Below are positions 14,302 to 38,072 of a stretch of DNA of 64,000 nt, one piece after another. Below the pieces are notes generated by a model. That model did not search any database and was not told where the DNA came from. It saw only the letters and a program-made list of their open reading frames with translations. How positions within the stretch are numbered: position 1 is the stretch's first letter; the number at the start of each line of letters is the position of its first letter. Both the position numbers and the translations under genes were made by a program. The stretch is taken from NCBI GenBank assembly GCA_024220505.1, contig JAKZZE010000001.1, positions 2,418,001 to 2,482,000 of the forward strand. The letters are read 5' to 3'. The DNA is from Rhizopus arrhizus (Eukaryota; Mucoromycota; Mucoromycetes; Mucorales; Rhizopodaceae).

Positions 14302-14310
14302 TCAAAAAAA

Positions 14311-14645
14311 TGAGATATTTGCAGATAATAAAGTGAGAAAAAAGAAAGGAAATAGTACTTGAAAACTAGTGAATGAGTCTCTATGTAACCTCTTTATTAG
14401 ATTTCAAGACGAGAGTGAGAACCCATTTAATCAAACTACGCCTTTATATAGGAAATGAAATTATTCAGGGACCGAAGTGAGTTCAAGGTCAATTTTAGTA
14501 TTGAGCTTGAACAATATAAACATTGTATATGAGCTTTTAAGGAATATGTAATGAGTAATATTATGTATTCAGTACTTGTTATTTCTTATATAAGATCTGA
14601 GTAATCTCATACGAATAATAAGTATTTAATGAGGTAAATACGACA
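14311..14645 (-). repeat. 5' LTR of element B
   Basis: 335 bp. It is followed by TCATT, matching 8384-8388. The inward minus-strand sequence starts TTTTTTTGAATGAATTC, again without a TGG primer site. Confidence 0.92.
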
Positions 14646-14650
14646 TCATT

Positions 14651-19109: not shown

Positions 19110-19180
19110 TGCGTCCTCGGGGAATCGAACCCCGGCCTTCACCTTGGAAGGGTGAAATTCTACCATTAAACTAAGAACGC
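19110..19180 (-). tRNA. tRNA-Gly (anticodon TCC)
   Basis: The minus strand folds as a cloverleaf. The acceptor GCGTTCT pairs with AGGACGC (one G-T). The anticodon stem TCACC/GGTGA encloses the loop CTTCCAA, giving anticodon TCC. The T arm is CGGGG-TTCGATT-CCCCG and the discriminator base is A. There is no intron. Its first 14 nt (TAAACTAAGAACGC on the plus strand, 19167-19180) recur after every LINE and SINE copy to the right, so this gene is the integration target of that array. It remains intact, because the insertions begin exactly at its mature 5' end. Internal A and B boxes should keep it transcribable, but its natural 5' flank has been pushed about 15.6 kb away. Confidence 0.95.
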
Positions 19181-19382
19181 GCAAGCCACTTTTCTTTCGC
19201 TTTTGGTTAAAAAGGTAAACTTGACTCTTTTTTGGAAAGCCGATATCTCTGTCAAATCTATCCATCCATCAACAATTTTTACATCAATCGACGCCTTTTG
19301 ATCTATACTTTTATTTGGTTCAACTCTTATTCTGATATCTTCACTACTTGTTGCTTAATCATTCCTGAAAGTTTGCATCCAA

Positions 19383-20369
19383 ATGTCAACAACAAGAAAT
19401 ACTAGAGGATCCAAAATCCTGAATGCCGCCGCCGGACACAATTCGTCCGACCACGAAGTCACTGTTCAGAGTCTAAGTCACGCACTTCAAGCTGTCACTG
19501 CTCGTCTCTCTGCTCTTGAACAGCTCAAGCTAGAGCTTGAAACTTTGCGAGGTGAGAATGCTCGCCTTGCCGAAACAACCCAATCTCAAGCCAATGAGAT
19601 TGCTTCCCTGCGTGCCCAATTGGCCGCACAAACTACCGGGGTCCCTACAAGCACCCCCAATTCAAGTACCGCTGCTTCTTCTGCTGCCGCTCCTAACGGT
19701 GCTAAAGAGTCCGTTCCTTCGCCCTCCTTGGGTACTGCTGCCTCGTCTTGGGCTACTGTTGTCTCTCGTTCTGCAAAGAACAAACTCCGTCGTCGTGCCG
19801 CTGCTGCTCGTGGTTTCCAGCCTGTGTCTGGTGAACAAGGCTTCGAGTATGTTTATATACCTCGCTCTCGTAGGATGACCTACACCGAAGCTCGTCGTCG
19901 TCTCTCTCGTCTTGGTGTGGATAGCTGGCGCATCTTGGATGTGTGCTATCCTGCTCACTCTGTTGTCGGTCTGCTCGTACATCTGCAGTACAAGCCTGCT
20001 CTTCTGTCCTTGCTCGAAAAGGCCAAGATCCCCACCTTGGATACTTTCGATCCACTTGACCCTGCCAACCTGGCCGATCCCAAGTTTGACTCTGTTTCTG
20101 TCGAGGAGCGTAGCCATGCTATCTCACTGATTAATGATGATCGTTCTCGCAAGGCTTTAGAGCGCTTGCGCTATCCTGTTGCTGTCTCTGTCTCTCGTTA
20201 CTTGTTGGCGCAAGCCCTTGTCTCTGATGAGACAGTATCTGAAGTTCTGTCTGCTAAGGAAGATCGACCCAAGACTGCCCGCCATTACGATGATATGGCT
20301 GAAGACATGGCTCTTGATGACTATGAGCATCACCGTCCTGCCTCTCGCTCTAGCTTTGAATCATTATAA
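19383..20369 (+). CDS. LINE copy 1 ORF1 protein
   Basis: 328 residues. A short basic N-terminus leads to a leucine-rich heptad region (about residues 26-85, LSALEQLKLELETLRGENA), predicted to form a coiled coil. Then come a Ser/Thr/Ala-rich linker, a basic patch KNKLRRRAAAARG, and a folded region of about 155-220 (YVYIPRSRRMTYTEARRRL ... VVGLLVHLQYKPALL) that looks like an RRM-type beta-alpha fold. That resemblance is inference. No CCHC knuckle is present, unlike ORF1 of many Tad, Jockey and R1-type elements. The expected role is binding LINE RNA as a multimer. The stop TAA shares its last A with the ORF2 start (TAATG). Confidence 0.88.
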   Translation: MSTTRNTRGSKILNAAAGHNSSDHEVTVQSLSHALQAVTARLSALEQLKLELETLRGENARLAETTQSQANEIASLRAQLAAQTTGVPTSTPNSSTAASSAAAPNGAKESVPSPSLGTAASSWATVVSRSAKNKLRRRAAAARGFQPVSGEQGFEYVYIPRSRRMTYTEARRRLSRLGVDSWRILDVCYPAHSVVGLLVHLQYKPALLSLLEKAKIPTLDTFDPLDPANLADPKFDSVSVEERSHAISLINDDRSRKALERLRYPVAVSVSRYLLAQALVSDETVSEVLSAKEDRPKTARHYDDMAEDMALDDYEHHRPASRSSFESL

Positions 20370-23300
20370 TGATGAGTAGTAATACTTGTCATTATAATGC
20401 ATCCTTGGTCTCTACATCTGGTATGGTCCCAGATCAGTCAACTCCTTCCTCTCCTTTGGTTTCCTCTGGTTCTCATGGCTCCCATGGTCCATCCTCTCCT
20501 TCGTCATCGTCATCAACTTCTTCTATTCCGCTCACAATCGGCTTGTGGAATGCCAATGGGCTTCAAGAATCCACAGCCGAGGATCTCCTCCGTCACTGCC
20601 AGTCGTTCTCTTTGGTCTTCATCACTGAAACCTGGTTGCTTCCGCCTCACAGGATCCGTACCTCTTGGACCCAGTTCAACCTGTATGGCTCTCCTGTGAT
20701 CAACAGCTATCGTGGCTCTCAAGGTGTCTCTGCTCTGGTGTCTCCTCGGTGTCCGATGGCTGTGGTACAGTTCCCGGTTCATACCAAGTATGCTCTGGGT
20801 CTGCGGTTGGGTCGCTCCTTGCGTCTCATCTGCCTGTATTTGCCTCCTTCCTTGTCCAACGACGAGGTCTCTTCTGTGTTGGTTTCGTTGCCCTTGACAG
20901 ACGACACGATCATCTGTGGTGATCTGAACGCGCGTCTTGGTGCACTAACGGGTGATTCCGTTGCCAATGCTCGAGGTTCGGTGCTGCTTCGCTGGTGTGA
21001 AGAACATGGTCTTTCTGTTCTGAACTCGACTCTCGCTCCTGGGGTACCTACTTTCTTGTCCTTTCGTGGTGGTCAAGTCAAGCAAAGTATGATCGACTAC
21101 TTCTTGACCAACACGACCTCTGTCCTTCGGTCCCCTCGGATGCAAGTCTACAGTGATCTCTCTCTTGGCTCTGACCATAAACTGTTGTCCTTGTCCTTTG
21201 ACTATGCAGTCCCTGATGGTTATCCATCGCAGCCCGTTCTCTCTTCTTCTTCTTCTGCCCGTCGGCTATGGAACCTCTCTCGGTTGAAGGAACCCGATGT
21301 CTGTAGTCTGTACGTGGCCTCATTCCAGTCCTTGGTCTCTCCATTGGTTGATCAGCTCAAGTCTCTGAAGTCAAGTCCTCCTTCTGCTGCTCCGCCTATA
21401 GACGCTCTCAACGACACTCTGAACGAGGCGATCTATAGTGCACTCGACAAGTCGGTTGGCTCTCGCTCTTCTCGACCTTCCCAATGGAAGCCATTCTGGA
21501 ATGCGCACTTGCAAGAACTCGCCGATGTTCGTGAACACCACTACCGCAAGTGGCGTCGTGCTATTGGCATCGACAAGGCCTTGTGGTGGGATCGACATCA
21601 GGCTGCTCAAGCCCGGTTCCGCTCTGCTCTCAAGTCTGCTAAGCGTCTCTCTTGGCGTGCTTTCTGTGACTCTCTGGCCCGTGGCGAACTTGCTCGTGCG
21701 ATGTCGAAGGTGAAGGTGATTCGGAACCGACGACGTCAACAGGTTGGGTTTACTCATCCTGACGGCCCTGCTGCAGGTGCGAACGCGATGCGTCAACACC
21801 TTGCCTCGGTCTACTCTGGTGACGGTCTTCCGTCAAGGCGTCCTGACCCTCTGCCCTCTGTCTCTGGTATGGTGCCTTTTGACCTCGATAGTCAAGACCC
21901 TGGTATGCCTTCGTTCTCTGCTGACAGTGTGGGTTCACTGATGCGACGTCTCCCTCTGCGTAAAGCTCCTGGTCCTGACCACTTGCGTACGGAGATGCTC
22001 CTCCCCATCAAGTCTGTTCTGGCCCCACTGCTCTCTTTGCTTCTCAGTATCTGCTACCAGTGGTCATATACCCCTTCTCTCTGGCGTCAAGCACAGGTGG
22101 TCCCCATTCACAAAAAGGGTGATCCTACCTCGCCAGGGAACTATCGTCCAATCTCCTTGACCTCCATCGTCCGCAAGCTCTTTGAGATGTGTCTCTTTCC
22201 CTTTGTTGAAGATGTCTCTCCTCCGCTCGATGTAGTTCAAGGTGGTTTCCGTCACCAGCGTAGTGCATTGGATCAAGCTCTCTGTCTCCATGATCTGATG
22301 CACTCTTACCGACGCCGACACAATCATTATCCTGTGGTCGCTTTCCTGGACATCAAGTCAGCCTATGATACAGTCGATCGTCGTATCATATGGCAATCGA
22401 TGCTCGCCTCTTCTGCTCCTCTGTCCTTGGTGTCCTTGTTGGCCAACATGTTTGATGATGTCTCGGTGTCTGTGTTGTTGCAGAACAATGTCTCTGATCC
22501 GTTTGTGCCGAGTACAGGTGTCCTTCAGGGCTCTGTCTTGAGTCCTCACCTGTACTCGATCTATGTCAACACATTGCCAGCTCTGCTTCGTTCTGCTGCT
22601 TCTGCAACAACCACCTCGGTGTTATCGGTGTCTCCTTCTGGTCCTCCTGGTCCTGGTGCTCTGGTCTCCGATGGTCTTCCCTTTGGTCCTTTGGTTGGTA
22701 CTGCTGCTTTGTCTTCCTCGTCTCTGTCGCCCACACCCATCAACAGTCTGTTGTATGCGGATGATGTGGCACTGGTTGGGTCTGCTAGCGAAGTTCGGCA
22801 TATGCTGGACCTAGCACAGATCCATTCTCTGACTCTTGGTTACAAGTGGAGTCCACCAAAGTGTGCCGTCCTCAATGCACCTTCTCCAGGTTCAAGTCGC
22901 TTTGTTCAGATGTCGTTGTATGATGAAGATCTTCCCTCTGTTGAGGAGTTCACTTATCTTGGTGTCCCTTTCGATGGTAAAGGTATCTCTGTCTCTGCCA
23001 TGATAAAGAATCGCTCTTCAAGTACCTTGGCGGCTATGGCTCAACTTCACTCTATGGGCCTTAACCGTCAAGGCTTTACTCTGCTTCTCTCTTCTCGTCT
23101 CTTTGCTGCCTTCATCCGTCCTAAGCTCGAGTATGGCCTTGCTATTGCTCGACTTACAAGAAAGGACGGTGAAGAGCTTAACCGCGCTCAAGACCGGTGT
23201 CTTCGAATGCTTGTCGGTGGTCACCGAACTGCCTCGACTGTCGTCCTCCGCCATATCACCAATCTGCCGTCAATGACATTTCGAGCAGATACCTTGGTTC

Positions 23301-23938
23301 TGAAGTTCTGCCTTCGATTCAATGGCCTTCCTGATGACTGTCTCTTGTCTCTGCTATCCTCTTCTGTTCCGTCGTCATTGCTGACACAGCTCCGTAAGCG
23401 GCAAATCGTACTCGACTACCCTTCGGATGCTCCTCTTTCGTCTTCTCGTCTTGCTTCTTGGTTGCGAAGGTATCGTCAAGATCAATTTCAAAGCTTCTTA
23501 CAGTCCACCCCTCAGGTTCTGATTCGCGCTTGTCGTCCTGTTCTCCGGGTGGATCCCATCCTGTACTTGCCTGCCTCCCGTGCTGACCGGTCTCGTCTTG
23601 TTAGATGGCGCATGGGTTGGATCCCAGGCAAGCCTGCTCCCTGTTCCTGTGGTCTTGGCGATACTTCTCGTTCTCACCTCATGGTCTGTACCTTGGTTCC
23701 TTTTGCTCTTTGGTGCTGTCTACCTGTACCGCCGACTGGTTATGTGGGTCACCACATAGACTATGTCTTGAACTTGCTTCCTGTCTCTGCTTCTGCTCGT
23801 TGTCCGCCATTTTGGTCCGCTCTTTGTCAGATCCTCTGTCACTTTGACAAGATCTGTCATCCTGACATCGAGTACAACTCGTCTTCTCTGCCAGGTCAAG
23901 TCTGGATTGACAAGTCCTCTGCTGCTACTACTCCCTAA
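20369..23938 (+). CDS. LINE copy 1 ORF2: APE endonuclease and reverse transcriptase
   Basis: 1189 residues. The N-terminal apurinic-type endonuclease has LWNANGL (about 55), ITETWL (about 83), GDLNARLG (about 184), MIDYFLTN and SDHKLL (about 267), i.e. the expected metal-binding Asn, Glu, Asp and His residues. A basic, Trp-rich linker follows. RT motifs: KAPGPDHLR, NYRPISLTS, FLDIKSAYD (about 657), GVLQGSVLSP (about 716) and catalytic YADD (about 795). A Ser/Pro/Gly-rich insert of several tens of residues lies between the last two. The C-terminal CSCGLGDTSRSHLMVC (about 1090) is a CXCX8HX3C finger. No RNase H domain is seen. The enzyme would nick the tRNA gene and copy the LINE RNA there. The frame is intact. 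Confidence 0.93.
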   Translation: MMSSNTCHYNASLVSTSGMVPDQSTPSSPLVSSGSHGSHGPSSPSSSSSTSSIPLTIGLWNANGLQESTAEDLLRHCQSFSLVFITETWLLPPHRIRTSWTQFNLYGSPVINSYRGSQGVSALVSPRCPMAVVQFPVHTKYALGLRLGRSLRLICLYLPPSLSNDEVSSVLVSLPLTDDTIICGDLNARLGALTGDSVANARGSVLLRWCEEHGLSVLNSTLAPGVPTFLSFRGGQVKQSMIDYFLTNTTSVLRSPRMQVYSDLSLGSDHKLLSLSFDYAVPDGYPSQPVLSSSSSARRLWNLSRLKEPDVCSLYVASFQSLVSPLVDQLKSLKSSPPSAAPPIDALNDTLNEAIYSALDKSVGSRSSRPSQWKPFWNAHLQELADVREHHYRKWRRAIGIDKALWWDRHQAAQARFRSALKSAKRLSWRAFCDSLARGELARAMSKVKVIRNRRRQQVGFTHPDGPAAGANAMRQHLASVYSGDGLPSRRPDPLPSVSGMVPFDLDSQDPGMPSFSADSVGSLMRRLPLRKAPGPDHLRTEMLLPIKSVLAPLLSLLLSICYQWSYTPSLWRQAQVVPIHKKGDPTSPGNYRPISLTSIVRKLFEMCLFPFVEDVSPPLDVVQGGFRHQRSALDQALCLHDLMHSYRRRHNHYPVVAFLDIKSAYDTVDRRIIWQSMLASSAPLSLVSLLANMFDDVSVSVLLQNNVSDPFVPSTGVLQGSVLSPHLYSIYVNTLPALLRSAASATTTSVLSVSPSGPPGPGALVSDGLPFGPLVGTAALSSSSLSPTPINSLLYADDVALVGSASEVRHMLDLAQIHSLTLGYKWSPPKCAVLNAPSPGSSRFVQMSLYDEDLPSVEEFTYLGVPFDGKGISVSAMIKNRSSSTLAAMAQLHSMGLNRQGFTLLLSSRLFAAFIRPKLEYGLAIARLTRKDGEELNRAQDRCLRMLVGGHRTASTVVLRHITNLPSMTFRADTLVLKFCLRFNGLPDDCLLSLLSSSVPSSLLTQLRKRQIVLDYPSDAPLSSSRLASWLRRYRQDQFQSFLQSTPQVLIRACRPVLRVDPILYLPASRADRSRLVRWRMGWIPGKPAPCSCGLGDTSRSHLMVCTLVPFALWCCLPVPPTGYVGHHIDYVLNLLPVSASARCPPFWSALCQILCHFDKICHPDIEYNSSSLPGQVWIDKSSAATTP

Positions 23939-24202
23939 TGACAAGCGCTCTGATCCACCCTCTGGCTTCTACCTCCCACTGCCAAACCATTTTAGTGCAC
24001 GATGCGGAGGAGACCATGGTGTTGACGAGTTGCTCAGTAGTTAGCGTCTCCATTGGCCTTTTCTCTTTCCTTTTTTTTCGCTCTTGTGTGCTCTGCGAGT
24101 GTTTTTTGTTTCTTGTCTTTTCTTTTTGTACTTGAGTATGACTATCATGATATTTATCGCTTGTCAATATACTCCTAATATATATTAATAAAAATCTTCG
24201 TC
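23939..24202 (+). other. LINE copy 1 3' UTR
   Basis: 264 nt, nearly the same in all three copies, ending in a short A-rich run followed by the invariant TTCGTC. Read-through frames here are not considered coding. Confidence 0.7.
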
Positions 24203-24216
24203 TAAACTAAGAACGC
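24203..24216 (+). repeat. 14-bp target-site duplication (tRNA-Gly 5' end)
   Basis: TAAACTAAGAACGC, equal to 19167-19180, the first 14 nt of the tRNA-Gly gene. The same 14 bp recur at 24756-24769, 29788-29801 and 34802-34815. Confidence 0.92.
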
Positions 24217-24755
24217 AGGTGTGGGTGTTTGTCGTAGTGGTTAAGGCGCTACCGTATGGGTTGAGTGTCCTTTGGACATGCAGGTTCGAATCCTGCCTTC
24301 CTCACACCGTCTCTTCCACGCACGGTCACATGACTTCCTTAACGTGCGTCGTCTCTGGCTTTCGGTGTGTCCCGCCTGTGTGTTGCGTTGCGTGCCAGCT
24401 GGGTATCTGGTCCACCTTCCCTCCCTTTCGGTGTCCCCGTTGGCATTTCTTTCTGTTCTCTCTTTCCTCCCTGGGTTTTGACGCCGCTGCTGTTCTGGTC
24501 GGTCTGCGTTGTGTGCTGTTTGGTGAGCAGCATTATCAGCGTTGCAAGGATGCCCACCTCGGGCTTAATGAAGCATGTCTCTCTCTCTCTGTTCCAAGTC
24601 TTCGTCTGTCGCTTCAGCCAAATAATTGCCCTGCTTACCCTCCCTTCCCTTCCCCCTTAACAGTTTGTATGCTTTCCCAGTTCGTTCTGTGGTCTAGCAA
24701 TTAATGACACATATGTCGCCTGCATATTTGACCAATAAAAATAAAAAGTTTCGTC
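24217..24755 (+). mobile_element. SINE-like unit with tRNA-like head, inserted at the same tRNA-Gly site
   Basis: A 539-bp unit between two 14-bp tRNA-Gly repeats. Its head (about 24218-24306) resembles a type II (Leu/Ser-like) tRNA: an A-box-like GTAGTGGTTAAGGCG, a variable-arm hairpin TGTCC-TTT-GGACA and a perfect T arm GCAGG-TTCGAAT-CCTGC with B box GGTTCGAATCC. GGTGTG at the start can pair with CACACC at the end of the head. The anticodon stem does not pair, so it is not a working tRNA. The body has no ORF I would defend. The tail AATAAAAATAAAAAGTTTCGTC copies the LINE 3' terminus. The parsimonious reading is a non-autonomous SINE mobilised by the neighbouring LINE. Confidence 0.65.
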
Positions 24756-24769
24756 TAAACTAAGAACGC
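24756..24769 (+). repeat. 14-bp tRNA-Gly target duplication after the SINE
   Basis: TAAACTAAGAACGC again, immediately followed by LINE copy 2. Confidence 0.92.
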
Positions 24770-24963
24770 TTTTTCTTTCGCTTTTGGTTAAAAAGGTAAA
24801 CTTGACTCTTTTTTTGCAAGCCGATATCTCTGTCAAATCTATCCATCCATCAACAATTTTTACATCAATCGACTCCTTTTGATCTATACTTTTATTTGGT
24901 CCAACTCTTATTCTGATATCTTCATTACTTGTTGCTTAATCGTCGTTGAAAGTTTGCATCCAA

Positions 24964-25950
24964 ATGTCTTCAACAAGAAATACTAGAGGATCCAAGATCC
25001 TGAATGCCGCCGCCGGACTCAATTCGCCGGACCTGGAAGTCACTGTCCAGAATCTCAGTCACGCACTTGAAGCGGTCACTGCTCGTCTCTCTGCTCTAGA
25101 ACAGCTTAAGCTAGAGCTTGAAACCTTACGAGGTGAGAATGCTCGCCTTGCCGAAACAACCCGGTCTCAGGCCAATGAGATTGCTTCCTTGCGGGCCCAA
25201 TTGGCCGCACAAACTACCGGGGTCCCTACAAGCACCCCAAATTCAAGTACCGCTGTTTCTTCTGCTTCTGCTCCTACTGGTGCTAAAGAGTCCGTTCCTT
25301 CGCCCTCCTTGGGTACTGCTGCATCTTCCTGGGCTACTGTTGTCTCTCGTTCTGCAAAGAACAAACTCCGTCGTCGTGCTGCCGCTGCTCGTGGTTTCCA
25401 GCCCGTTTCTGGTGAACAAGGCTTCGAGTATGTCTATATACCTCGCTCTCGTAGGATGACCTACACTGAAGCTCGTCGTCGTCTCTCTCGCCTTGGTGTG
25501 GATAGCTGGCGCATCTTAGATGTGTGCTATCCTGCTCACTCTGTTGTCGGTCTGCTCGTACATCTTCAGTACAAGCCTGCTCTTCTGTCCTTGCTCGAAA
25601 AGGCCAAGATCCCAACCTTGGATACTTTTGATCCACTCGACCCATCCAATCTGGCTGATCCCAAGTTTGATTCTGTTTCTGTCGAGGAGCGTAGCCATGC
25701 TATCTCGCTGATTAATGACGACCGCTCTCGCAAGGCTTTAGAGCGCTTGCGCTACCCTGTTGCTGTCTCTGTCTCTCGTTACTTGTTGGCGCAAGCCCTT
25801 GTCTCTGATGAGACAGTATCTGAAGTTCTGTCTGTCAAGGAAGACCGACCCAAGACTACCCGCCATTACGATGATATGGCTGAAGACATGGCTCTTGATG
25901 ACTATGAGCATCACCGTCCTGCCTCTCGCTCTAGCTTTGGATCATTATAA
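24964..25950 (+). CDS. LINE copy 2 ORF1 protein
   Basis: 328 residues from the ATG at 24964, aligned with the copy 1 start. An upstream in-frame TTG is not needed. It is almost the same protein as ORF1 of copy 1, with a few changes in the coiled coil (for example HALEAV for HALQAV, ETTRSQ for ETTQSQ) and in the linker. It ends in the TAATG overlap with ORF2. Confidence 0.88.
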   Translation: MSSTRNTRGSKILNAAAGLNSPDLEVTVQNLSHALEAVTARLSALEQLKLELETLRGENARLAETTRSQANEIASLRAQLAAQTTGVPTSTPNSSTAVSSASAPTGAKESVPSPSLGTAASSWATVVSRSAKNKLRRRAAAARGFQPVSGEQGFEYVYIPRSRRMTYTEARRRLSRLGVDSWRILDVCYPAHSVVGLLVHLQYKPALLSLLEKAKIPTLDTFDPLDPSNLADPKFDSVSVEERSHAISLINDDRSRKALERLRYPVAVSVSRYLLAQALVSDETVSEVLSVKEDRPKTTRHYDDMAEDMALDDYEHHRPASRSSFGSL

Positions 25951-28900: not shown

Positions 28901-29519
28901 CGAGGGTCTTCCTGATGACTGTCTCTTGTCTCTGCTGTCTTCCTCTGTCTCTTCTTCACTATTGACACAGCTCCGTAAGCGGCAAATCGTACTCGACTAC
29001 CCTTCGGATGCCCCTCATTCGACTTCTCGTCTTGCTTCTTGGCTGCGAAGGTATCGTCAAGATCAATTTCAAAGCTTCCTACAGTCCACCCCCCAGGTTC
29101 TGATCCGCGCTTGTCGTCCTGTTCTTCGGGTGGATCCCATCCTCTACTTGCCTGCCTCCCGTGCTGACCGGTCTCGTCTCATCAGATGGCGCATGGGTTG
29201 GATCCCAGGCAAGCCTGCTCCCTGTTCTTGTGGTCTTGGCGATACTTCTCGCTCGCACCTTATGGTCTGTACCTTGGTTCCTTCTGCTCTCTGGTGCTGC
29301 TTGCCTGTTCCGCCGCCTGACTATGTGGGTCACCACATAGATTATGTCTTGAACTTGCTTCCTGTCTCTGCTTCTGCTCGGTGTCCGCCTTTCTGGTCCG
29401 CTCTTTGTCAGATCCTCTGTCACTTTGACAAGATCTGTCATCCTGACATCGAGTACAACTCGTCTTCTCTGCCAGGTCAAGTCTGGATTGACAAGTCCGC
29501 TGCTGCTACTACTCCCTAA
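25950..29519 (+). CDS. LINE copy 2 ORF2: APE endonuclease and reverse transcriptase
   Basis: 1189 residues, all catalytic motifs present (ITETWL, GDLNARLG, SDHKLL, FLDIKSAYD, YADD, CSCGLGDTSRSHLMVC). Compared with copy 1, differences cluster after the YADD motif: NAPTATSSRFVSMSLYGQD, FEGLPDD, and PSALWCCLPVPPPDYVGHH near the C-terminus. The endonuclease and most of RT are nearly unchanged. The gene has no stop or frameshift. Confidence 0.93.
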   Translation: MMSSNTCHYSASLVSSSGMVPDQSTPSSPLVSLGSHGSHGPSSHLSSSSSSIPLTIGLWNANGLQESTAEDLLRHCQSFSLVFITETWLLPPHRIRTSWTQFNLYGSPVINSYRGSQGVSALVSPRCPMAVVQFPVHTKYALGLRLGRSLRLICLYLPPSLSNDEVSSVLVSLPLTDDTIICGDLNARLGALTGDSVANARGSVLLRWCEEHALSVLNSTLAPGVPTFLSFRGGQVKQSMIDYFLTNMTSVLRSPRIQVYSDLSLGSDHKLLSLSFDYAVPDGYPSQPVLSSASSSARRLWNLSRLKEPDVCSLYVATFQSLVSPLVDQLKALKSSPPSAAPPIDALNDTLNEAIYSALDKSVGSRSSRPSQWKPFWNAHLQELADVREHHYRKWRRAIGIDKALWWDRHQVAQARFRSALKSAKRLSWRAFCDSLARGELARAMSKVKVIRNRRRQQVGFTHPDGPAAGANAMRQHLASVYSGDGLPSRRPDPLPSVSGMVPFDLDSQDPGMPSFSADSVGSLMRRLPLRKAPGPDHLRTEMLLPIKSVLAPLLSLLFSICYQWSYTPSLWRQAQVVPIHKKGDPTSPGNYRPISLTSIVRKLFEMCLFPFVEDVSPPLDVVQGGFRHQRSALDQALCLHDLMHSYRRRHNHYPVVAFLDIKSAYDTVDRRIIWQSMLASSAPLSLVSLLANMFDDVSVSVLLQNNVSDPFVPSTGVLQGSVLSPHLYSIYVNTLPALLRSAASATTTSVLSVSPSGPPGPGALVSDGLPFGPLVGTAALSSSSLSPTPINSLLYADDVALVGSASEVRHMLDLAQIHSLTLGYKWSPPKCAVLNAPTATSSRFVSMSLYGQDLPTTEEFTYLGVPFDGKGISVSAMIKHRSSSTLAAMAQLHSMGLNRQGFTLLLSSRLFAAFIRPKLEYGLAIARLTRKDGEELNRAQDRCLRMLVGGHRTASTVVLRHITNLPSMTFRADTLVLKFCLRFEGLPDDCLLSLLSSSVSSSLLTQLRKRQIVLDYPSDAPHSTSRLASWLRRYRQDQFQSFLQSTPQVLIRACRPVLRVDPILYLPASRADRSRLIRWRMGWIPGKPAPCSCGLGDTSRSHLMVCTLVPSALWCCLPVPPPDYVGHHIDYVLNLLPVSASARCPPFWSALCQILCHFDKICHPDIEYNSSSLPGQVWIDKSAAATTP

Positions 29520-29787
29520 TGACAAGCGCTCTGATCCACCCTCTGGCTTCTACCTCCCACTGCCAAACCATTTTAGTGCACGATGCGGAGGAGACCATGG
29601 TGTTGACGAGTTGCTCAGTAGTTAGCGCTTCCATTGGCCTTTTCTCTTTCCTTTTTTTCGCTCTTGTGTGCTCTGCGAGTGTTTTTTGTTTCTTGTCTTT
29701 TCTTTTTGTACTTGAGTATGACTATCATGATATTTATCGCTTGTCAATATACTCCTTATATATATTAATAAAAAAAAAATTTTCGTC

Positions 29788-29801
29788 TAAACTAAGAACG
29801 C
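29788..29801 (+). repeat. 14-bp tRNA-Gly target duplication after LINE copy 2
   Basis: TAAACTAAGAACGC, followed directly by LINE copy 3. Confidence 0.92.
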
Positions 29802-29996
29802 ACTTTTCTTTCGCTTTTGGTTAAAAAGGTAAATTCAACTCTTTTTTGGAAAGCCGATATCTCTGTCAAATCTATCCATCCATCAACAATTTTTACATCA
29901 ATCGACTCCTTTTGATCTATACTTTTATTTGGTTCAAATCTTATTCTGCTACCTTCAATACTTGTTGCTTAATCGTTGCTCAAAGTTTGCATCCAA

Positions 29997-30983
29997 ATGT
30001 CAACAACAAGAAATACTAGAGGATCCAAAATCCTGAATGCCGCCGCCGGACCCAATTCGTCCGACCTCGAAGTCACAGTGCAAAATCTCAGTCACGCACT
30101 TCAAGAGGTAACGACTAGACTCTCAGCCTTAGAACAGCTTAAGTTGGAATTGGAGACTTTGAGAGGTGAGAATGCTCGCCTCGTACAAACCAATGAATCT
30201 CAAGCCAATGAGATTGCTTCTCTGCGTGCTCAGTTAGCCGCACAAACCGCCGGGGTCCCTACAAGCACCCCAAGTTCAAATACCGCTCTTTCTTCTGCTG
30301 CTGCTCCTGCTGGTGCTAAACAGTCCGTTTCTTCGCCCTCCTTGGGTACTGCTGCCTCGTCTTGGGCTACTGTTGTTTCTCGTTCTGCAAAGAACAAACT
30401 CCGTCGCCGTGCCGCTGCTGCTCGTGGTTTCCAGCCTGTGTCTGGTGAGCAAGGTTTTGACTATGTCTACATACCTAGATCTCGCAAAATGACATATACC
30501 GAAGCTCGTCGTCGTCTTGGTCGTCTGGGTGTTGACACCTGGCGGGTGCTAGATGTTTCGTTCCCCGCGCACTCCGTTGTTGGCCTACTTGTACACCTCC
30601 AGTACAAGCCTGCTCTCGTCTCATTGCTTGAAAAAGCAAAGATCAAGATCCTCGATCAGTTCGACCCTTTGGATCCTGACAACGTTGCTGACCCTGCTTT
30701 CTCTTCCGCGTCTCTGGAGGTACGTCAAGAAAAGATGGCGCACATTTCTAATGAGCGTTGCCTTCGTACCCTTGAGCGCTTGCGCTATCCTGTTGCTGTT
30801 GCTGTCTCGCGCTTCTTTTTGGCTAATGCCATGGTGTCTGACGAGGCTGTCTCTGATGTCTTGTCTGCCAAGCAAGATCGTCCCTCCTTCCCTCGTCATC
30901 CTGATCAACCCGACGACGACATGGTTCTTGATGACTATGAGCATCACCGTCCGGCCTCTCGTTCCAGCTTTGGATCATTATAA
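29997..30983 (+). CDS. LINE copy 3 ORF1 protein (divergent)
   Basis: 328 residues from the ATG at 29997, of the same overall plan. The second half differs clearly from copies 1 and 2 (VDTWRVLDVSFPAHSV; KIKILDQFDPLDPDNVADP; RFFLANAMVSDEAVSDV), with many silent changes too, while the last residues up to the TAATG junction return to near identity. This patchiness suggests recombination or gene conversion, or a chimeric template. Confidence 0.88.
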   Translation: MSTTRNTRGSKILNAAAGPNSSDLEVTVQNLSHALQEVTTRLSALEQLKLELETLRGENARLVQTNESQANEIASLRAQLAAQTAGVPTSTPSSNTALSSAAAPAGAKQSVSSPSLGTAASSWATVVSRSAKNKLRRRAAAARGFQPVSGEQGFDYVYIPRSRKMTYTEARRRLGRLGVDTWRVLDVSFPAHSVVGLLVHLQYKPALVSLLEKAKIKILDQFDPLDPDNVADPAFSSASLEVRQEKMAHISNERCLRTLERLRYPVAVAVSRFFLANAMVSDEAVSDVLSAKQDRPSFPRHPDQPDDDMVLDDYEHHRPASRSSFGSL

Positions 30984-33900
30984 TGATGAGTAGTAATACT
31001 TGTCATTATAATGTATCCTCGGTCTCTACATCTGGTATGGTCCCAGATCCGTCAACTCCTTCCTCTCCTTTGGTTTCTCATGGCTCCCATGGTCCGTCCT
31101 CTCCTTTACCACCATCAACTTCTTCTATTCCGCTCACTATCGGCTTGTGGAATGCCAATGGGCTTCAAGAATCCACAGCCGAAGATCTTCTTCGTCACTG
31201 CCAGTCGTTCTCTCTGGTGTTTATCACTGAAACCTGGTTGCTTCCGCCTCACAGGATCCGTACCTCTTGGACCCAGTTCAACTTGTATGGCTCTCTTGTG
31301 ATCAACAGCTATCGTGGCTCTCAAGGTGTCTCTGCTCTGGTGTCTCCTCGGTGTCCGATGGCTGTGGTACAGTTCCCGGTTCATACCAAGTATGCTCTGG
31401 GTCTGCGGTTGGGTCGCTCCTTGCGCCTCATCTGCCTGTATTTGCCCCCTTCCTTGTCCAACGACGAGGTCTCTTCTGTGTTGGTTTCGTTGCCCTTGAC
31501 AGACGACACGATCATCTGTGGTGATCTGAACGCGCGTCTTGGTGCACTAACGGGTGATTCCGTTGCTAATGCTCGAGGTTCGGTGCTGCTTCGCTGGTGT
31601 GAAGAACATGGTCTCTCTGTTCTGAACTCGACTCTCGCTCCTGGGGTGCCTACCTTCTTGTCCTTTCGTGGTGGTCAAGTCAAGCAAAGTATGATCGACT
31701 ACTTCTTGACCAACATGACCTCTGTCCTTTGGTCCCCTCGGATGCAAGTCTACAGTGATCTCTCTCTTGGCTCTGACCACAAACTGTTGTCCTTGTCCTT
31801 TGACTATGCAGTCCCTGACGGTTATCCATCGCAGCCCGTTCTCTCTTCTTCTGCCCGTCGGCTATGGAACCTCTCTCGGTTGAAGGAACCCGATGTCTGT
31901 AGTCTGTACGTGGCCACATTCCAGTCCTTGGTCTCTCCATTGGTTGATCAGCTCAAAGCTCTGAAGTCAAGTCCTCCTTCTGCTGCTCCGCCTATAGACG
32001 CTCTCAATGACACTTTGAATGAGGCGATCTATAGTGCACTCGACAAGTCGGTTGGCTCTCGCTCTTCTCGACCTTCCCAATGGAAGCCATTCTGGAATGC
32101 GCACTTGCAAGAACTCGCCGATGTTCGTGAACACCACTACCGCAAGTGGCGTCGTGCTATTGGCATCGACAAGGCCTTGTGGTGGGATCGACATCAGGCT
32201 GCTCAAGCCCGGTTCCGCTCTGCTCTCAAGTCTGCCAAGCGTCTCTCTTGGCGTGCTTTCTGTGACTCTCTGGCCCGTGGCGAACTTGCTCGTGCGATGT
32301 CGAAGGTGAAGGTGATTCGGAACCGACGACGTCAACAGGTTGGGTTTACTCATCCTGACGGCCCTGCTGCAGGTGCGAACGCGATGCGTCAACACCTTGC
32401 CTCGGTCTACTCTGGTGACGGTCTTCCGTCAAGGCGTCCTGACCCTCTGCCCTCTGTCTCTGGTATGGTGCCTTTTGACCTCGATAGTCAAGACCCTGGT
32501 ATGCCCTCGTTCTCTACTGACAGTGTGGGTTCACTGATGCGACGTCTCCCTCTGCGTAAGGCTCCTGGTCCTGACCACTTGCGTACGGAGATGCTCCTCC
32601 CCATCAAGTCTGTTCTGGCCCCACTGCTCTCTTTGCTTTTCAGTATCTGCTACCAGTGGTCGTATACCCCTTCTCTCTGGCGTCAAGCACAGGTGGTCCC
32701 CATCCACAAAAAGGGTGATCCTACCTCGCCAGGGAACTATCGTCCAATCTCCTTGACCTCCATCGTCCGCAAGCTCTTTGAGATGTGTCTCTTTCCCTTT
32801 GTTGAAGATGTCTCTCCTCCGCTCGATGTAGTTCAAGGTGGTTTCCGTCACCAGCGTAGTGCATTGGATCAAGCTCTCTGTCTCCATGATCTGATGCACT
32901 CTTACCGACGCCGACACAATCATTATCCTGTGGTCGCTTTCCTGGACATCAAGTCAGCCTATGATACAGTCGATCGTCGTATCATATGGCAATCGATGCT
33001 CGCCTCTTCTGCTCCTCTGTCCTTGGTGTCCTTGTTGGCCAACATGTTTGATGATGTCTCGGTGTCTGTGTTGTTGCAGAACAATGTCTCTGATCCGTTT
33101 GTGCCGAGTACAGGTGTCCTTCAGGGCTCTGTCTTGAGTCCTCACCTGTACTCTATCTACGTCAACACATTGCCAGCTCTGCTTCGTTCTGCTGCTTCTG
33201 CAACAACCACCTCGGTGTTATCGGTGTCTCCTTCTGGTCCTTCTGGTCCTGGTGCTCTGGTCGCTGATGGTGTTCCCTTTGGTCCTTTGGTTGGTACTGC
33301 TGCTTTGTCTTCCTCGTCTCAGTCGCCCACACCCATCAACAGTCTGTTGTATGCGGATGATGTGGCGCTGGTTGGGTCTGCTAGCGAAGTTCGGCATATG
33401 CTGGACCTAGCGCAGATCCACTCCTTGACTCTTGGTTACAAGTGGAGTCCACCAAAGTGTGCCGTCCTTAATGCACCTACTGCCACCTCAAGTCGGTATG
33501 TTCGAATGTCATTATATGATCAAGACCTTCCCTCTGTTGAGGAGTTTACTTATCTTGGTGTGCCCTTTGATGGTAAGGGTATTTCTGTCTCTGCTCTGAT
33601 AAAGCATCGCGCTTCTGGTACTTTTGCTGCCATGGCTCAGCTCCATTCGATGGGACTCAACCGTCAAGGCTTTACTCTGCTGCTCTCTTCTCGTCTGTTC
33701 GCTGCGTTCATACGTCCTAAGCTTGAGTATGGCCTAGCCATTGCTCAACTTACAAGAAAGGACTATGACGAACTCAATCGCGCGCAAGACCGATGTCTAA
33801 GGATGCTTGTCGGTGGTCATCGAACTGCTTCAACTGTGGTGCTTCGGCACATAACGAACCTACCATCGATGACATTTCGAGCTGATACCTTGGTTCTCAA

Positions 33901-34534
33901 GTTTTGTCTTCGCTTCAATGGCCTTCCTGACGACTGCCTCTTGTCTCTGCTGTCTTCTTCTGTTTCGTCGTCATTGCTGACACAGCTCCGTAAGCGGCAA
34001 ATTGTTCTTGATTACCCTTCGGATGCTCCTCTCTCTTCTTCTCGTCTTGCTTCTTGGTTGCGAAGGTATCGTCAAGACCAGTTTCAAAGCTTCTTACAGT
34101 CCACCCCCCAGGTTCTCATCCGCGCTTGTCGTCCTGTTCTTCGGGTGGATCCCATCCTGTACTTGCCTGCCTCCCGTGCTGACCGGTCTCGTCTTGTTAG
34201 ATGGCGCATGGGTTGGATCCCAGGCAAGCCTGCTCCCTGTTCCTGTGGTCTTGGCGATACTTCTCGTTCTCACCTCATGGTCTGTACCTTGGTTCCTTTT
34301 GCTCTTTGGTGCTGTCTACCTGTACCGCCGACTGGTTATGTGGGTCACCACATAGACTATGTCTTGAACTTGCTTCCTGTCTCTGCTTCTGCTCGGTGTC
34401 CGCCTTTCTGGTCCGCTCTTTGTCAGATCCTCTGTCACTTTGACAAGATCTGTCATCCTGACATCGAGTACAACTCGTCTTCTCTGCCAGGTCAAGTCTG
34501 GATTGACAAGTCCTCTGCTGCTACTACTCCCTAA
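30983..34534 (+). CDS. LINE copy 3 ORF2: APE endonuclease and reverse transcriptase
   Basis: 1183 residues. The six-residue deficit lies in Ser-rich N-terminal and linker runs (LVSHGSHGP; VLSSSARRL). All endonuclease and RT residues are kept. Between about residues 825 and 1010 the sequence differs from copy 1 (ALIKHRASGTFAAMAQ, IAQLTRKDYDELNRAQ), but the C-terminal end (PFALWCCLPVPPTGYVGHH) matches copy 1 rather than copy 2. Confidence 0.93.
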   Translation: MMSSNTCHYNVSSVSTSGMVPDPSTPSSPLVSHGSHGPSSPLPPSTSSIPLTIGLWNANGLQESTAEDLLRHCQSFSLVFITETWLLPPHRIRTSWTQFNLYGSLVINSYRGSQGVSALVSPRCPMAVVQFPVHTKYALGLRLGRSLRLICLYLPPSLSNDEVSSVLVSLPLTDDTIICGDLNARLGALTGDSVANARGSVLLRWCEEHGLSVLNSTLAPGVPTFLSFRGGQVKQSMIDYFLTNMTSVLWSPRMQVYSDLSLGSDHKLLSLSFDYAVPDGYPSQPVLSSSARRLWNLSRLKEPDVCSLYVATFQSLVSPLVDQLKALKSSPPSAAPPIDALNDTLNEAIYSALDKSVGSRSSRPSQWKPFWNAHLQELADVREHHYRKWRRAIGIDKALWWDRHQAAQARFRSALKSAKRLSWRAFCDSLARGELARAMSKVKVIRNRRRQQVGFTHPDGPAAGANAMRQHLASVYSGDGLPSRRPDPLPSVSGMVPFDLDSQDPGMPSFSTDSVGSLMRRLPLRKAPGPDHLRTEMLLPIKSVLAPLLSLLFSICYQWSYTPSLWRQAQVVPIHKKGDPTSPGNYRPISLTSIVRKLFEMCLFPFVEDVSPPLDVVQGGFRHQRSALDQALCLHDLMHSYRRRHNHYPVVAFLDIKSAYDTVDRRIIWQSMLASSAPLSLVSLLANMFDDVSVSVLLQNNVSDPFVPSTGVLQGSVLSPHLYSIYVNTLPALLRSAASATTTSVLSVSPSGPSGPGALVADGVPFGPLVGTAALSSSSQSPTPINSLLYADDVALVGSASEVRHMLDLAQIHSLTLGYKWSPPKCAVLNAPTATSSRYVRMSLYDQDLPSVEEFTYLGVPFDGKGISVSALIKHRASGTFAAMAQLHSMGLNRQGFTLLLSSRLFAAFIRPKLEYGLAIAQLTRKDYDELNRAQDRCLRMLVGGHRTASTVVLRHITNLPSMTFRADTLVLKFCLRFNGLPDDCLLSLLSSSVSSSLLTQLRKRQIVLDYPSDAPLSSSRLASWLRRYRQDQFQSFLQSTPQVLIRACRPVLRVDPILYLPASRADRSRLVRWRMGWIPGKPAPCSCGLGDTSRSHLMVCTLVPFALWCCLPVPPTGYVGHHIDYVLNLLPVSASARCPPFWSALCQILCHFDKICHPDIEYNSSSLPGQVWIDKSSAATTP

Positions 34535-34801
34535 TGACAAGCGCTCTGATCCACCCTCTGGCTTCTACCTCCCACTGCCAAACCATTTTAGTGCACGATG
34601 CGGAGGAGACCATGGTGTTGACGAGTTGCTCAGTAGTTAGCGTCTCCATTGGCCTTTTCTCTTTCCTTTTTTTTCGCTCTTGTGTGCTCTGCGAGTGTTT
34701 TTTTGTTTCTTGTCTTTTCTCTTTTGTTTCTTGAGTATGACTATCATGATATTTATCGCTTGTCAATATACTCCTTATATATTAATAAAAAAATCTTCGT
34801 C

Positions 34802-34815
34802 TAAACTAAGAACGC
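34802..34815 (+). repeat. 14-bp tRNA-Gly target duplication, distal end of the array
   Basis: TAAACTAAGAACGC. What follows (AGGTATGTGG...) should be the original 5' flank of the tRNA-Gly gene before any insertion. Confidence 0.9.
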
Positions 34816-35544
34816 AGGTATGTGGATTGATACTCTCCGAGGTGATTATGATTGTAAACTCGATTTGTGTGGCCAGAAGAAATTTCCTTTTCTGTTTGGT
34901 TCCTCGAGTTAAATCTATCCTTTTTTGATGTAGTAACACTTGTCTTAAAGAGGTGAAGCTTTTGGTCTTTTTCCTTTTTGGTCTAGCTCAACTTGGTCAC
35001 GGCCGAATGGAATGAGTAAGTCAATGTGAAAGAAATTCAAGATTAGAAAAAATGAAAGATGTCTGTTGGTGGCCTGGGTGTCGGTAGCGAGTCGATGACG
35101 TGAGAAGGAAATCTGGGTTTGATTTCGGTGTTGTCTCGGCGGAGCTTCAGCAGCATTGATCATTGTCCAAAGCTTAAATCATCTTTCCTTTGATTTACCA
35201 TTTTTATTCTAGTATTCCTCTGATCGTGTTTGACGCTATTTTAGTTACTTGATTTAACTTTTGATCTAAATTAGTTTACCTTCTTAATTTTTTTTAATTG
35301 CATCATTCCTTCCACTTGTGTAAAGAATTGATATCAGGATAACCCTTAGTTTAACTTCGAAAAGATATAAATATTGTTATAAAGTGAATCAATAAACAAC
35401 ATCGTAATCGAATTCTTTCTTCCGGATAATATTGTCTTGGTTTAAAGACAAGGTTTTATTGTTACTGTTTACCTATTGGATTCGTGTTTTCTTTTCTATT
35501 AAAGAACATTTCAGTCTATTATTCGCAAGTCCTTCAAAACAACT
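34816..35544. other. Gene-free AT-rich region, probable original 5' flank of tRNA-Gly
   Basis: No coding region, repeat pair or RNA gene could be supported. A 72-codon frame at 34945-35163 (minus) has low-complexity composition and no recognisable motif. The final five bases CAACT are the target duplication of element D. Confidence 0.45.
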
Positions 35545-35969
35545 TGTTTTGCCAAGTATTAAAATAAGAGACAAAAACTAAAAAAAGACAATAGTTGTGA
35601 AACTAAAGATTATATGTTGCTTTATTAATAAAAACATTTGAGGCTATTTATACTTTTTGGATGTCTGGATCTTTACCGCTATTTCAATTGATCGGTTAAA
35701 AGAATAATGTGGGAAGGATGGGAAGATAAAGGAAAGATAGTAGATAATCAATAGCCGCTGTCTTCTTGACGAATCAAGGGACAATGAAGTAGATAAATTA
35801 TTGATCTAACGATAATTATCGAATAAGGTTGGATTGAACTGCCGTTGTTATAATCAGGTTCCGATATAGTCGTGGGAACGCCGATAGGGACAACAGGGCA
35901 GAGTTGGCTATTGCGGAGATCTCTCGTTTATCCATGAATGTTCACTTTACTAGTTGTGTGGATACAACA
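35545..35969 (-). repeat. 3' LTR of element D
   Basis: 425 bp, TGTTTTGCCAAG...GGATACAACA on the plus strand. It appears identical to 47406-47830. The last bases resemble the LTR end of element C (GATACATCA). Confidence 0.92.
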
Positions 35970-36196
35970 TTGCCCCCTTCTAGTTTGAAGCAAACGGTAA
36001 AAAGGAAAAGTGAAGATTCAAAAATGAGCAAAGGTCATACACAATAAGTGCGGTAATGATCATAGGGTAGATAAATAGACATAGTATAATTGAGAATAGA
36101 TCGTAGTAGTAAGTTTGTCATAAAAACCTGATAGTAAAAAAACCTTCTTTAGGAAAAATTGTCTTAGGGAAAAAGACGGTCAACTACTTAGACAAT
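35970..36196 (-). other. Element D 3' untranslated region with polypurine tract
   Basis: The minus strand reads AGAAGGGGGCAA next to the LTR, a clear polypurine tract almost the same as in element C. The remaining sequence between stop and PPT shows nothing recognisable. Confidence 0.6.
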
Positions 36197-37814: not shown

Positions 37815-37819
37815 ATATC

Positions 37820-38029
37820 TGTCGTGTTTGGTCATTAATGATGTCTTTATTTATTATTTTATGATTGATCTCAGTCAAGCCTACGTCAGACTATATAATT
37901 AATAGTCAGACAATATAATCCAGGGTTCATTCTAAATTATTAGTTCCCCTCCTTTTTCTTACTTAATAAATAGTAGTTGTTAGCTATTGACTTCTTACTG
38001 TTTTCATATTATAAGTACCAAATATCTCA
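37820..38029 (+). repeat. 5' LTR of element E
   Basis: 210 bp, TGTCGTGTTTGG...AAATATCTCA. The sequence just inside is TTTTTTTCAATAAGCC. It has a T run as in the other elements but lacks the GAATTC that they share, and it has no TGG primer site. Confidence 0.92.
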
Positions 38030-38072
38030 TTTTTTTCAATAAGCCACTCCAACTACTACCACCACTACAAAC

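Follow-up and report, generated by a model that had tools for sequence, protein, structure and literature searches.

LINEs and SINEs stacked at the first nucleotide of tRNA genes in Rhizopus arrhizus: candidates for site-specific insertion into the tRNA A box

How can a mobile element return repeatedly to one tRNA gene and leave that gene whole? The question is raised by a locus within a stretch of 64,000 nucleotides of Rhizopus arrhizus DNA, called the window below, in which an intact tRNA-Gly(TCC) gene (19110..19180, minus strand, nt 1 at 19180; ARAGORN, Rfam tRNA 68.7 bits) serves as the landing site and is identical over 71 nt to the fully read tRNA-Gly genes of loci L049 and L012. The original prediction described three LINEs of about 5 kb and one SINE standing head to tail on this gene, with an identical 14-bp word after each of them, and both statements are borne out. 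On the plus strand, LINE1 copy A, the proximal one (19181..24202, 5022 bp), is followed by SINE1 (24217..24755, 539 bp), with its tRNA-like head containing the B box GGTTCGAATCC and its tail TTTCGTC, and then by LINE1 copy B (24770..29787, 5018 bp) and the distal copy C (29802..34801, 5000 bp). The target 14-mer TAAACTAAGAACGC, the reverse complement of tRNA nt 1-14, lies in situ at 19167..19180, and a motif search finds it again on the plus strand as a target duplication 3' of copy A (24203..24216), SINE1 (24756..24769), copy B (29788..29801) and copy C (34802..34815, the distal limit of the recognised array), all five copies in the window being free of mismatches. In copy A the usual LINE head, ACTTTTC, is set off from tRNA nt 1 by seven additional bases, GCAAGCC (19181-19187); the last five of these equal the end of the tRNA-Pro target, and the seven may be read as a 5' transduction. 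Because of them, the predicted 'distance zero' from the mature tRNA end is to be taken as the second-strand cut point. On the distal side, a 12-bp stretch (34816..34827, plus strand) separates the last 14-mer from a solo-LTR-like repeat, which starts 12 bp past 34815 and has a Ty3-like element nested in it; the final four bases of the stretch, GGAT, are found again at 47861-47864.

The three LINE1 copies all retain open reading frames ORF1 and ORF2 on the plus strand, at 19383..20369 and 20369..23938 in copy A (where the ORF1 stop and the ORF2 start overlap as TAATG), at 24964-25950 and 25950-29519 in copy B, and at 29997-30983 and 30983-34534 in copy C. ORF1 of copy A contains a coiled coil and no Pfam family above cut-off, and in structures predicted for three ORF1 sequences the coiled coil alone is passable (mean pLDDT 48). 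ORF2 of copy A combines an AP-type endonuclease (PF14529, PF03372), a reverse transcriptase (RT; PF00078) and a C-terminal CxCx7Hx4C motif. PF14529 and PF00078 exceed the Pfam cut-off in all three copies and PF03372 in two, copy C falling just below it (23.6 vs 24.5 bits), while a Pfam search at E values up to 0.1 found in LINE1 ORF2 neither integrase nor RNase H, nor any other domain beyond the N-terminal AP-type endonuclease and the RT. Residues N57, E83, D181, N183, D265, H266 and A794-D795-D796, which we take to be the catalytic residues of the endonuclease and the RT, are invariant or nearly so across 23 aligned rows. By its sequence features LINE1 is an AP-endonuclease-type non-LTR retrotransposon, since it has an AP-type endonuclease and an RT and no integrase, together with a defined 3' end, a variable 5' junction and a target duplication. 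Among solved structures, the endonuclease part has TRAS1 as its sole and weak match (E 0.16), and in a search of PDB sequences R2 and human L1 come out as neighbours of the RT. A tree of 88 of 109 sequences (the other 21 being without the RT stretch), built from relatives only, puts the distant ones on long branches; no relative was matched in the viral contig set, and none of 11 pattern matches in the genome contig set was one.

Arrays of this type are not confined to the window and recur throughout the 50-Mb genome. We tabulated 123 3' ends using patterns that demanded exact tail words, so that copies with other tails were missed, and that left the flank unconstrained apart from excluding G as its 14th base. 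These comprise 52 of 52 rows for LINE1, 37 of 40 for SINE1 (two lacking an A-rich tail and one being an overlapping duplicate) and 34 of 46 for a second LINE/SINE family, family 2, in which 12 rows were without the A-run plus TCTTTAACC and the reversed pattern gave 12+12. In 120 of the 123 the flank is identical to nt 1-14 of a listed tRNA gene from another place in the genome, so that the prediction's worry over copies at unrelated sites is not realised; the three flank words that fit no listed start occur at C1:2385975, at C17:315511 and, as a one-base variant, at C32:37789. For LINE1 and SINE1, together family 1, exactly nt 1-14 of a tRNA gene come after 87 of 89 3' ends. Eight gene starts are involved, six of which belong to Gly-TCC, Pro-AGG, Asp-GTC, His-GTG, Ala-TGC and Val-AAC, identified, like the Ala-AGC of family 2, with ARAGORN. 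The idea of tRNA-Gly as the fixed home of the element was thus too narrow, and as sole target it is rejected by the 3' flanks of the tabulated LINE1, SINE1 and family 2 ends. A14 is present at all 123 sites, and T8 and G10 are nearly invariant.

The tRNA genes themselves give a matching picture. Elements read away from the tRNA, and at each occupied locus that was read the gene is intact. A divergent gene of the same tRNA class lies within 60 kb on the 5' side of 103 of the 123 elements, and the nearest listed gene of that class has the expected side and orientation for 102 and not for 2, with none within 60 kb for 19. The gene lists behind these figures comprise 40 rows, of which 32 were kept for starting with a 14-mer that also occurs beside an element, and about the first 100 of 181 matches, of which 14 rows were used, so that gene counts per class are lower bounds. 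Among 29 tRNA genes whose junction was read, 21 adjoin at nt 1 a canonical LINE1, SINE1 or SINE2 head, with 0-8 extra bases between, one adjoins a variant SINE-like head and seven adjoin none. Recognised elements occupy at least 42 tRNA loci. At four loci for which no tRNA was yet known the junction position was guessed from LINE length (L065, L074, L075 and L076), and a tRNA was found only at L075; the guess fell within ORF2 at L065 and on DNA without a tRNA at L074 and L076, and these three arrays are therefore longer or broken, or have lost their tRNA.

Family 2, with the tail TCTTTAACC, shares the habit, 33 of its 34 3' ends lying at tRNA starts, mainly those of tRNA-Ala-AGC and of tRNA-Ile-AAT, the latter identified by an Rfam tRNA match with the anticodon AAT read by eye. 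Spacings of 5.4 kb led to the prediction of its LINE2, and the search then turned up an RT frame that shares 50% identity with LINE1. The target sets of the two families differ but overlap, and the families sit mostly on different tRNA genes. They appear to divide the tRNAs by nt 13, because C at this position occurs at 0 of 89 family 1 sites and at 28 of 34 family 2 sites. Family 2 also holds SINEs (SINE2), the SINE bodies being related across families and the tails different. The last 22 nt of SINE1 are 91% identical to the 3' end of LINE1 (E 0.008), and on this likeness SINE1 is taken to share its 3' tail with LINE1 as its partner. The B box of SINE1 is present, no A box was found by the pattern used, and a tRNA-Sec-like fold is weak (20.9 bits where the gathering score is 47; E 0.14). 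The short elements seem to ride on the LINEs.

Taken together, the junctions make it very probable that target-primed reverse transcription carries LINE1, as a site-specific AP-endonuclease LINE, and the SINE with the same 3' tail into the tRNA A box. The endonuclease would nick the tRNA-sense strand just 3' of A14, within the A box, a position suggested by the invariance of A14 (123 of 123). The 3' end of nt 1-14 would then prime cDNA synthesis from the terminal hexamer of the RNA, TTCGTC or TTTAACC, and the second strand would be cut at nt 1. With the cuts so placed, the 14-bp duplication would rebuild nt 1-14, so that the tRNA gene survives with the 5' end of the element at its nt 1 and the site is open to reuse. 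What is left behind the element, 14 bp without tRNA nt 15-18, should cease to be a site, so that each new copy would land beside the tRNA and shift the older ones outward into an array.

Whether arrays do grow in this way, by repeated insertion, or by unequal crossing over that duplicates a single LINE-plus-14-bp unit can be judged from the units themselves. Their head-to-tail order with a short repeat between them is what tandem duplication would give, and between copies the identity reaches 98-100% over some stretches of 500 columns. A tRNA-Asp 14-mer on one SINE1 within a tRNA-Ala array (C34:18591) suggests, in this one instance, that recombination from array to array also occurs. Yet the extra bases and truncations at 5' junctions and the lengths of tails and A-runs vary from unit to unit; LINEs and SINEs of the two families alternate, as at one tRNA-Pro (C40:169221), where they are interleaved; pieces of other targets stand at 5' junctions, such as the Gly piece AAGAACGC at a Pro site (L054) and the Pro piece GAAGCC at an Ala site (L063); and 22 of the 42 occupied tRNA loci hold a single recognised element. 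Differing junctions, interleaved families and the carrying over of foreign target pieces argue for repeated target-primed insertion as the probable builder of the arrays, and plain tandem duplication, rejected on these grounds, is a highly improbable account. That the newest copy lies next to the tRNA is weakly suggested by array order: of 20 arrays that contain at least two elements, 16 have a clean proximal interval (p 0.005 by permutation within arrays), 'clean' being defined by ranges of the analyst's own choice, but across all 42 loci clean intervals are without a rank trend (23/42, 10/20, 8/14 and 17/28 for ranks 1, 2, 3 and ≥4).

The choice of site could also be explained in other ways. 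RNA polymerase III factors (TFIIIC/TFIIIB) might bring the element to tRNA genes, with an endonuclease of little sequence preference, and TRE5-A offers a precedent, since its ORF1 protein has subunits of TFIIIB as interaction partners and its targeting is abolished by B-box mutations that interfere with TFIIIC (PMC5911963); the targets identified in this genome, moreover, are tRNA genes, with A boxes. Such tethering alone would leave the split of the families by nt 13 (0/89 vs 28/34) unexplained, and it fits poorly with a junction that is fixed to the base pair and shows A14 at every one of 123 sites, against a range of 40-54 bp upstream in the description of TRE5. We consider it unlikely as the sole explanation, although tethering and sequence reading may act jointly. 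Still less probable is a form of retrohoming in which the transcript reads into the 14-nt remnant and its RNA pairs with the nicked target, the transcript tail thereby supplying the specificity. RNA copied from the remnant would match the nicked tRNA-sense strand by perfect base pairing, and the 5' side of transcripts seems to include neighbouring target remnants; but LINE1 seems to shift between tRNA classes, with a remnant of the Gly target at a Pro site and remnants of the Pro target at sites of Ala and Gly, and the same tail, TTCGTC or TTTAACC, stands before several different 14-mers. The reading of the 14 bp as belonging to the element itself, which the original prediction named as its own possible undoing, or as a repeat due to chance could draw on their identity behind four of four units in the window, but we give it practically no credence. 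As part of the LINE they are rejected, the word varying with the tRNA (10 different words in family 1 and 7 in family 2), and as a chance repeat likewise, five copies comparing with a chance mean of 0.48 in a search allowing up to 2 mismatches and being reached in 0 of 100 shuffles. The distal flank past one 14-mer (C34:1184485) also has a likeness to the DNA beside an unoccupied tRNA-Gly gene (score 26, reached by 0 of 500 shuffles, the best of them 25), the same flank comparison giving no match for the other unoccupied tRNA-Gly gene or for the distal flank of the window.

Insertion by LINE1 into the A box can be set beside several known systems. Site-specific insertion into multicopy DNA is familiar from R1/R2, and from the telomere-targeted TRAS/SART and MoTeR, with tandem stacking in the telomeric cases; these have other targets, and the rDNA elements R1/R2 interrupt their target gene, whereas the tRNA gene would be rebuilt intact by LINE1. 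Ty3 and other tRNA-directed LTR retrotransposons likewise make their home at tRNA genes but use an LTR integrase mechanism, and the NeSL group has a restriction-like endonuclease, downstream of the RT, unlike the N-terminal AP-type endonuclease of LINE1. The NeSL-type elements NeSL-1_TV in tRNA-Pro, LIN15_SM in tRNA-Arg and LIN25_SM in tRNA-Glu are, like LINE1, sequence-specific non-LTR elements of tRNA genes, but one tRNA species is named for each (PMC4640811), against about eight tRNA-gene starts for the LINE1 family. The dictyostelid NLTR-A, NLTR-B, TRE5 and TRE3 are described as AP-endonuclease non-LTR elements tied to tRNA genes. According to these descriptions (PMC5911963, PMC5006619), NLTR-A of D. 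purpureum inserts 2-6 bp upstream of the mature tRNA and has an RNase H downstream of its RT, TRE5 lies 40-54 bp upstream in opposite orientation to the tRNA, and TRE3 lies 40-150 bp downstream. So described, NLTR-A, TRE5 and TRE3 sit outside the tRNA gene, whereas the first nick of LINE1 would fall within it, at A14 and exact to the base. Insertion at nt 1/14 departs from the spacing of TRE5 and TRE3; the duplicated nt 1-14 and the absence of RNase H (Pfam, E up to 0.1) set LINE1 apart from NLTR-A by description, NLTR-A and NLTR-B both carrying RNase H; and the stacking of full-length units is a further feature that distinguishes LINE1 from the dictyostelid elements as these are described. 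Dewa of zebrafish, invoked by the original prediction, is a looser precedent, being tRNA-linked and non-LTR but reported from a tRNA-Leu spacer rather than an A box (PMC3706591), a comparison made by description only. The Dada DNA transposons, as outlined in the same source, sit inside their target tRNA genes and share this home with LINE1, the mechanism being that of a DDE transposase instead (PMC3706591). LINEs linked to tRNA genes are thus already known, and the apparent novelty would be the A-box-directed, niche-dividing and stacking design, of which searches of openly available papers, screened by title and the opening of the abstract, gave no account, none of the papers listed dealing with LINEs or SINEs at tRNA A boxes in Mucorales; an earlier entry in a database such as Repbase is possible.

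More broadly, and with confidence that only just tips in its favour, we suggest a Mucoromycota LINE clade whose endonuclease reads the tRNA A box, in which sister lineages split their niches by nt 13 and modular SINEs, each a related body with another tRNA-like head and another terminal hexamer, follow whichever LINE fits their tail. With cuts after A14 and at nt 1, every tRNA gene would be a self-renewing landing pad. If this is true, a LINE able to recognise a promoter element common to many genes and to rebuild the gene it enters would solve the dilemma of site-specific mobile DNA, its safe harbour being plentiful and not consumed by insertion. Two LINEs of one genome that share their cut geometry and differ in target choice, accompanied by SINEs whose bodies are related and whose tails differ, would make the LINE1/LINE2 pair a natural experiment on the target specificity of AP-type endonucleases, a long-standing question whose answer would be useful for targeted gene insertion. 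The arrays also raise the question of whether tRNA genes stay expressed when LINE 5' ends replace the DNA upstream of them.

The intact tRNA-Gly(TCC) gene of the window (19110-19180, minus strand) is adjoined rightward by four units pointing away from it, in the order LINE copy A, SINE, LINE copy B, LINE copy C; the three LINEs measure 5022, 5018 and 5000 bp, respectively, and the SINE 539 bp. Behind each of the four stands TAAACTAAGAACGC, the reverse complement of tRNA nt 1-14 (nt 1 being the mature 5' end), so that the head-to-tail arrangement of three LINEs and one SINE described by the original prediction is borne out. ORF1 (328 aa) and ORF2 (~1190 aa) are uninterrupted in all three LINE copies, and according to Pfam ORF2 encodes an AP-type endonuclease and a reverse transcriptase (RT), with no RNase H reported there at E up to 0.1. 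The ORF1 stop overlaps the ORF2 start in the motif TAATG (20367-20371 in copy A, and likewise in copies B and C), a layout shared with SART1, a LINE in which it serves to couple translation. A Rhizopus delemar protein shares 87% identity with ORF2 of copy B, as against 43-49% for Mucor proteins. The three LINE copies are mosaics: copy C shares only 75-77% identity with copies A and B in one 500-column segment of ORF1, but the values rise to 98-99% for the central part of ORF2 and to 96-100% towards the 3' end, which suggests exchange between lineages.

The genome comprises 50.26 Mb and 41 contigs, the window being C1:2418001-2482000. It was searched with 3'-end patterns of the LINE and the SINE that left the flank unconstrained apart from excluding G at its 14th base. 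All 52 rows were kept for LINE1 (reversed pattern 1+1) and 37 of 40 for SINE1 (reversed pattern 0+0), after dropping two rows without an A-rich tail and one overlapping duplicate. The 89 flanking 14-mers of this family 1, in tRNA sense, comprise GGCTTCTTGGTTTA (37), TCTTCGGTAGTATA (17), GCGTTCTTAGTTTA (14), GGGGAAATGGTGTA (11), GCCGTGATAGTATA (3), GGTTTCTTGGTGTA (3), GCGCGGATGGTTAA (1) and GGTCCCGTGGCGTA (1), together with a one-base variant of GGCTTCTTGGTTTA and one unexplained word. They match the gene starts of tRNA Pro-AGG, Asp-GTC, Gly-TCC, Ala-TGC, His-GTG and Val-AAC, while the flanks beginning GCGCGG and GGTCCC match other tRNA-like starts of the genome. The expectation that genomic copies are followed by tRNA sequence was thus confirmed in 87 of 89 cases, the exceptions being the one-base variant and the unexplained word; the tRNA-Gly gene is indeed a target, but not the exclusive home first proposed, as Pro, Asp, Ala, His and Val starts are used too.

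A different SINE, with the tail TCTTTAACC, is found at some tRNA-Pro genes and defines a second family. The search for this tail gave 46 rows, of which 34, having an A-run plus TCTTTAACC, were kept and 12 dropped (reversed pattern 12+12); the 34 flanks are GGTCGCTTAGCTCA (14), GGGGATGTAGCTCA (10), GGCTTCTTGGTTTA (5), TCCTCAATGGTCCA (2) and three single words. Rfam recognises the GGTCGC start as a tRNA (54.6 bits), its anticodon read as AAT (Ile), and the GGGGATG start is that of tRNA-Ala(AGC). A second LINE was predicted from the distances of ~5.4 kb that separate a tRNA-Ile gene from the first family-2 tail, and a 721-bp stretch taken from the expected position contains an open RT frame that shares 50% identity with LINE1; this second LINE of the genome matches a Rhizopus arrhizus protein at 99% identity across 161 residues, and the host is probably a Rhizopus. 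At two genes with a family-2 tail ~5.4-5.5 kb off, the sequence adjoining nt 1 is similar to the LINE1 head in one case, a tRNA-Ala(AGC) gene, and only weakly so in the other, a tRNA-Ile gene; judged by spacing, both would be LINE2 5' ends.

A14 is present in 123/123 sites, and T8 and G10 each in 122/123. At nt 13, T or A occurs in 89/89 family-1 sites, whereas C occurs in 28/34 family-2 sites (Fisher p 3e-22, sites within one array not being independent); counted by word, C is found in 0/10 against 5/7. Targets common to both families are tRNA-Pro and the GCGCGG tRNA. SINE1 and one SINE2 have a common body (72% over 398 columns; ~71% over 211 columns for a second SINE2 variant) and differ in the tRNA-like head and terminal hexamer. 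As the bodies are common and the tails differ, the target set goes with the tail, which would fit mobilisation of SINE1 by LINE1 and of SINE2 by LINE2.

A same-class tRNA gene lies within 60 kb on the 5' side, in divergent orientation, for 103 of 123 elements; with only the nearest same-class gene considered, 102 fit, 2 misfit and 19 are without any. Recognised elements occur at 42 tRNA loci, 20 of which carry at least two, the biggest run being 10 elements across 52 kb at tRNA-Pro C8:1174211 (contig:position). Junctions were readable at 29 of 32 kept tRNA genes, and a canonical LINE1, SINE1 or SINE2 head stands at nt 1 in 21 of them (0 to 8 extra bases); seven have no head, and one, tRNA-His C12:920577, adjoins the unusual SINE-like head GGTGTGGGTGTGAGAAATGGTATAG, perhaps a third SINE variant. 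Four more junctions were placed from LINE length before any tRNA was known there: one proved to hold tRNA-Val (C38:1088203), whose nt 1 is abutted by a LINE1 head, and at the other three (L065, L074, L076) a tRNA was looked for and not found.

Separate insertions, not duplication of units, are indicated for these arrays: A-run lengths and 5' junctions vary between units, and at tRNA-Pro C40:169221 the two families are interleaved (SINE1, family 2, LINE1, LINE1, SINE1, family 2, LINE1, LINE1). Ends of foreign targets also stand at some 5' junctions: a Pro site (L054) carries AAGAACGC from Gly, an Ala site (L063) carries GAAGCC from Pro, and copy A, at the Gly site, carries AAGCC from Pro. These pieces are read as 5' transductions, in which transcription would have started a few bases upstream, inside the donor's target remnant, and copies would move between tRNA classes. 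Past the 14-mer at C34:1184485, the distal flank is similar to that of the tRNA-Gly gene C34:1479074, which is unoccupied (score 26, as against 25 for the best of 500 shuffles); neither the second unoccupied tRNA-Gly gene nor the distal flank of the window gave a match. One SINE1 in a tRNA-Ala array (C34:18591-19150) is bordered by the tRNA-Ala 14-mer and, at its opposite end, by the tRNA-Asp 14-mer, as would result from recombination between two arrays.

Among the ORF2 matches listed (39 of 1228 candidates scored), 36/40 lack an internal stop and identity to copy B is 94-100%; 58 of 104 array intervals are one full unit long. These figures would fit recent activity. If intact tRNAs alone serve as targets, the unit adjoining the gene should be the newest. 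The proximal interval is clean, i.e., within spacing ranges we chose, in 16 of 20 arrays with at least two units (permutation p 0.005), which weakly suggests this order, but across all 42 loci the share of clean intervals has no tendency to change with rank.

Right of the array (34828-47860) lies a solo-LTR-like repeat of ~0.75 kb, starting TG, ending CA and bordered on both sides by the 4-bp GGAT; this repeat is itself split by a Ty3-like element with 99.3% identical LTRs (35535-35969 and 47396-47830). By coordinates, other copies of the repeat lie near tRNA 5' ends (C12:938078, C13:788658, C20:8081, C25:40951). At three tRNA-Asp genes without LINE or SINE (L057, C10:67176; L062, C13:788535; L069, C40:646912), LTR-like starts (TGATAC, TTGACA) stand ~10-17 bp off nt 1, a position that would suit Ty3-like elements using these genes as well, close to where transcription begins. 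To the right of the nested elements, within an AT-rich stretch, lies a tRNA-like sequence (48570-48640) that is similar to the head of locus L011's second SINE variant and is perhaps what remains of an older array. Since Ty3-type ORFs, with a chromodomain in four of five scanned, flank the array on both sides (2099-17400 and 36197-62872), the window resembles an island of mobile elements surrounding a single tRNA gene.

In earlier work, a review and a dictyostelid paper place TRE5 40-54 bp upstream, TRE3 40-150 bp downstream and NLTR-A 2-6 bp upstream of tRNA genes (PMC5911963, PMC5006619), the Utopia paper lists NeSL-1_TV, LIN15_SM and LIN25_SM as tRNA-specific elements (PMC4640811), and the Dada paper locates Dewa in a tRNA-Leu spacer (PMC3706591). 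Among the open-access papers searched, as judged by titles and abstract starts, the present design was not found. An RT tree of 88 rows from 109 sequences (21 without the RT stretch left out) puts LINE1 and LINE2 in separate groups, both with named Mucorales rows (supports 90/97 and 95/91, respectively), the branching order among groups being unresolved. As the two LINEs, the only two observed points, fall into separate groups, A-box targeting is probably older than the split between them.
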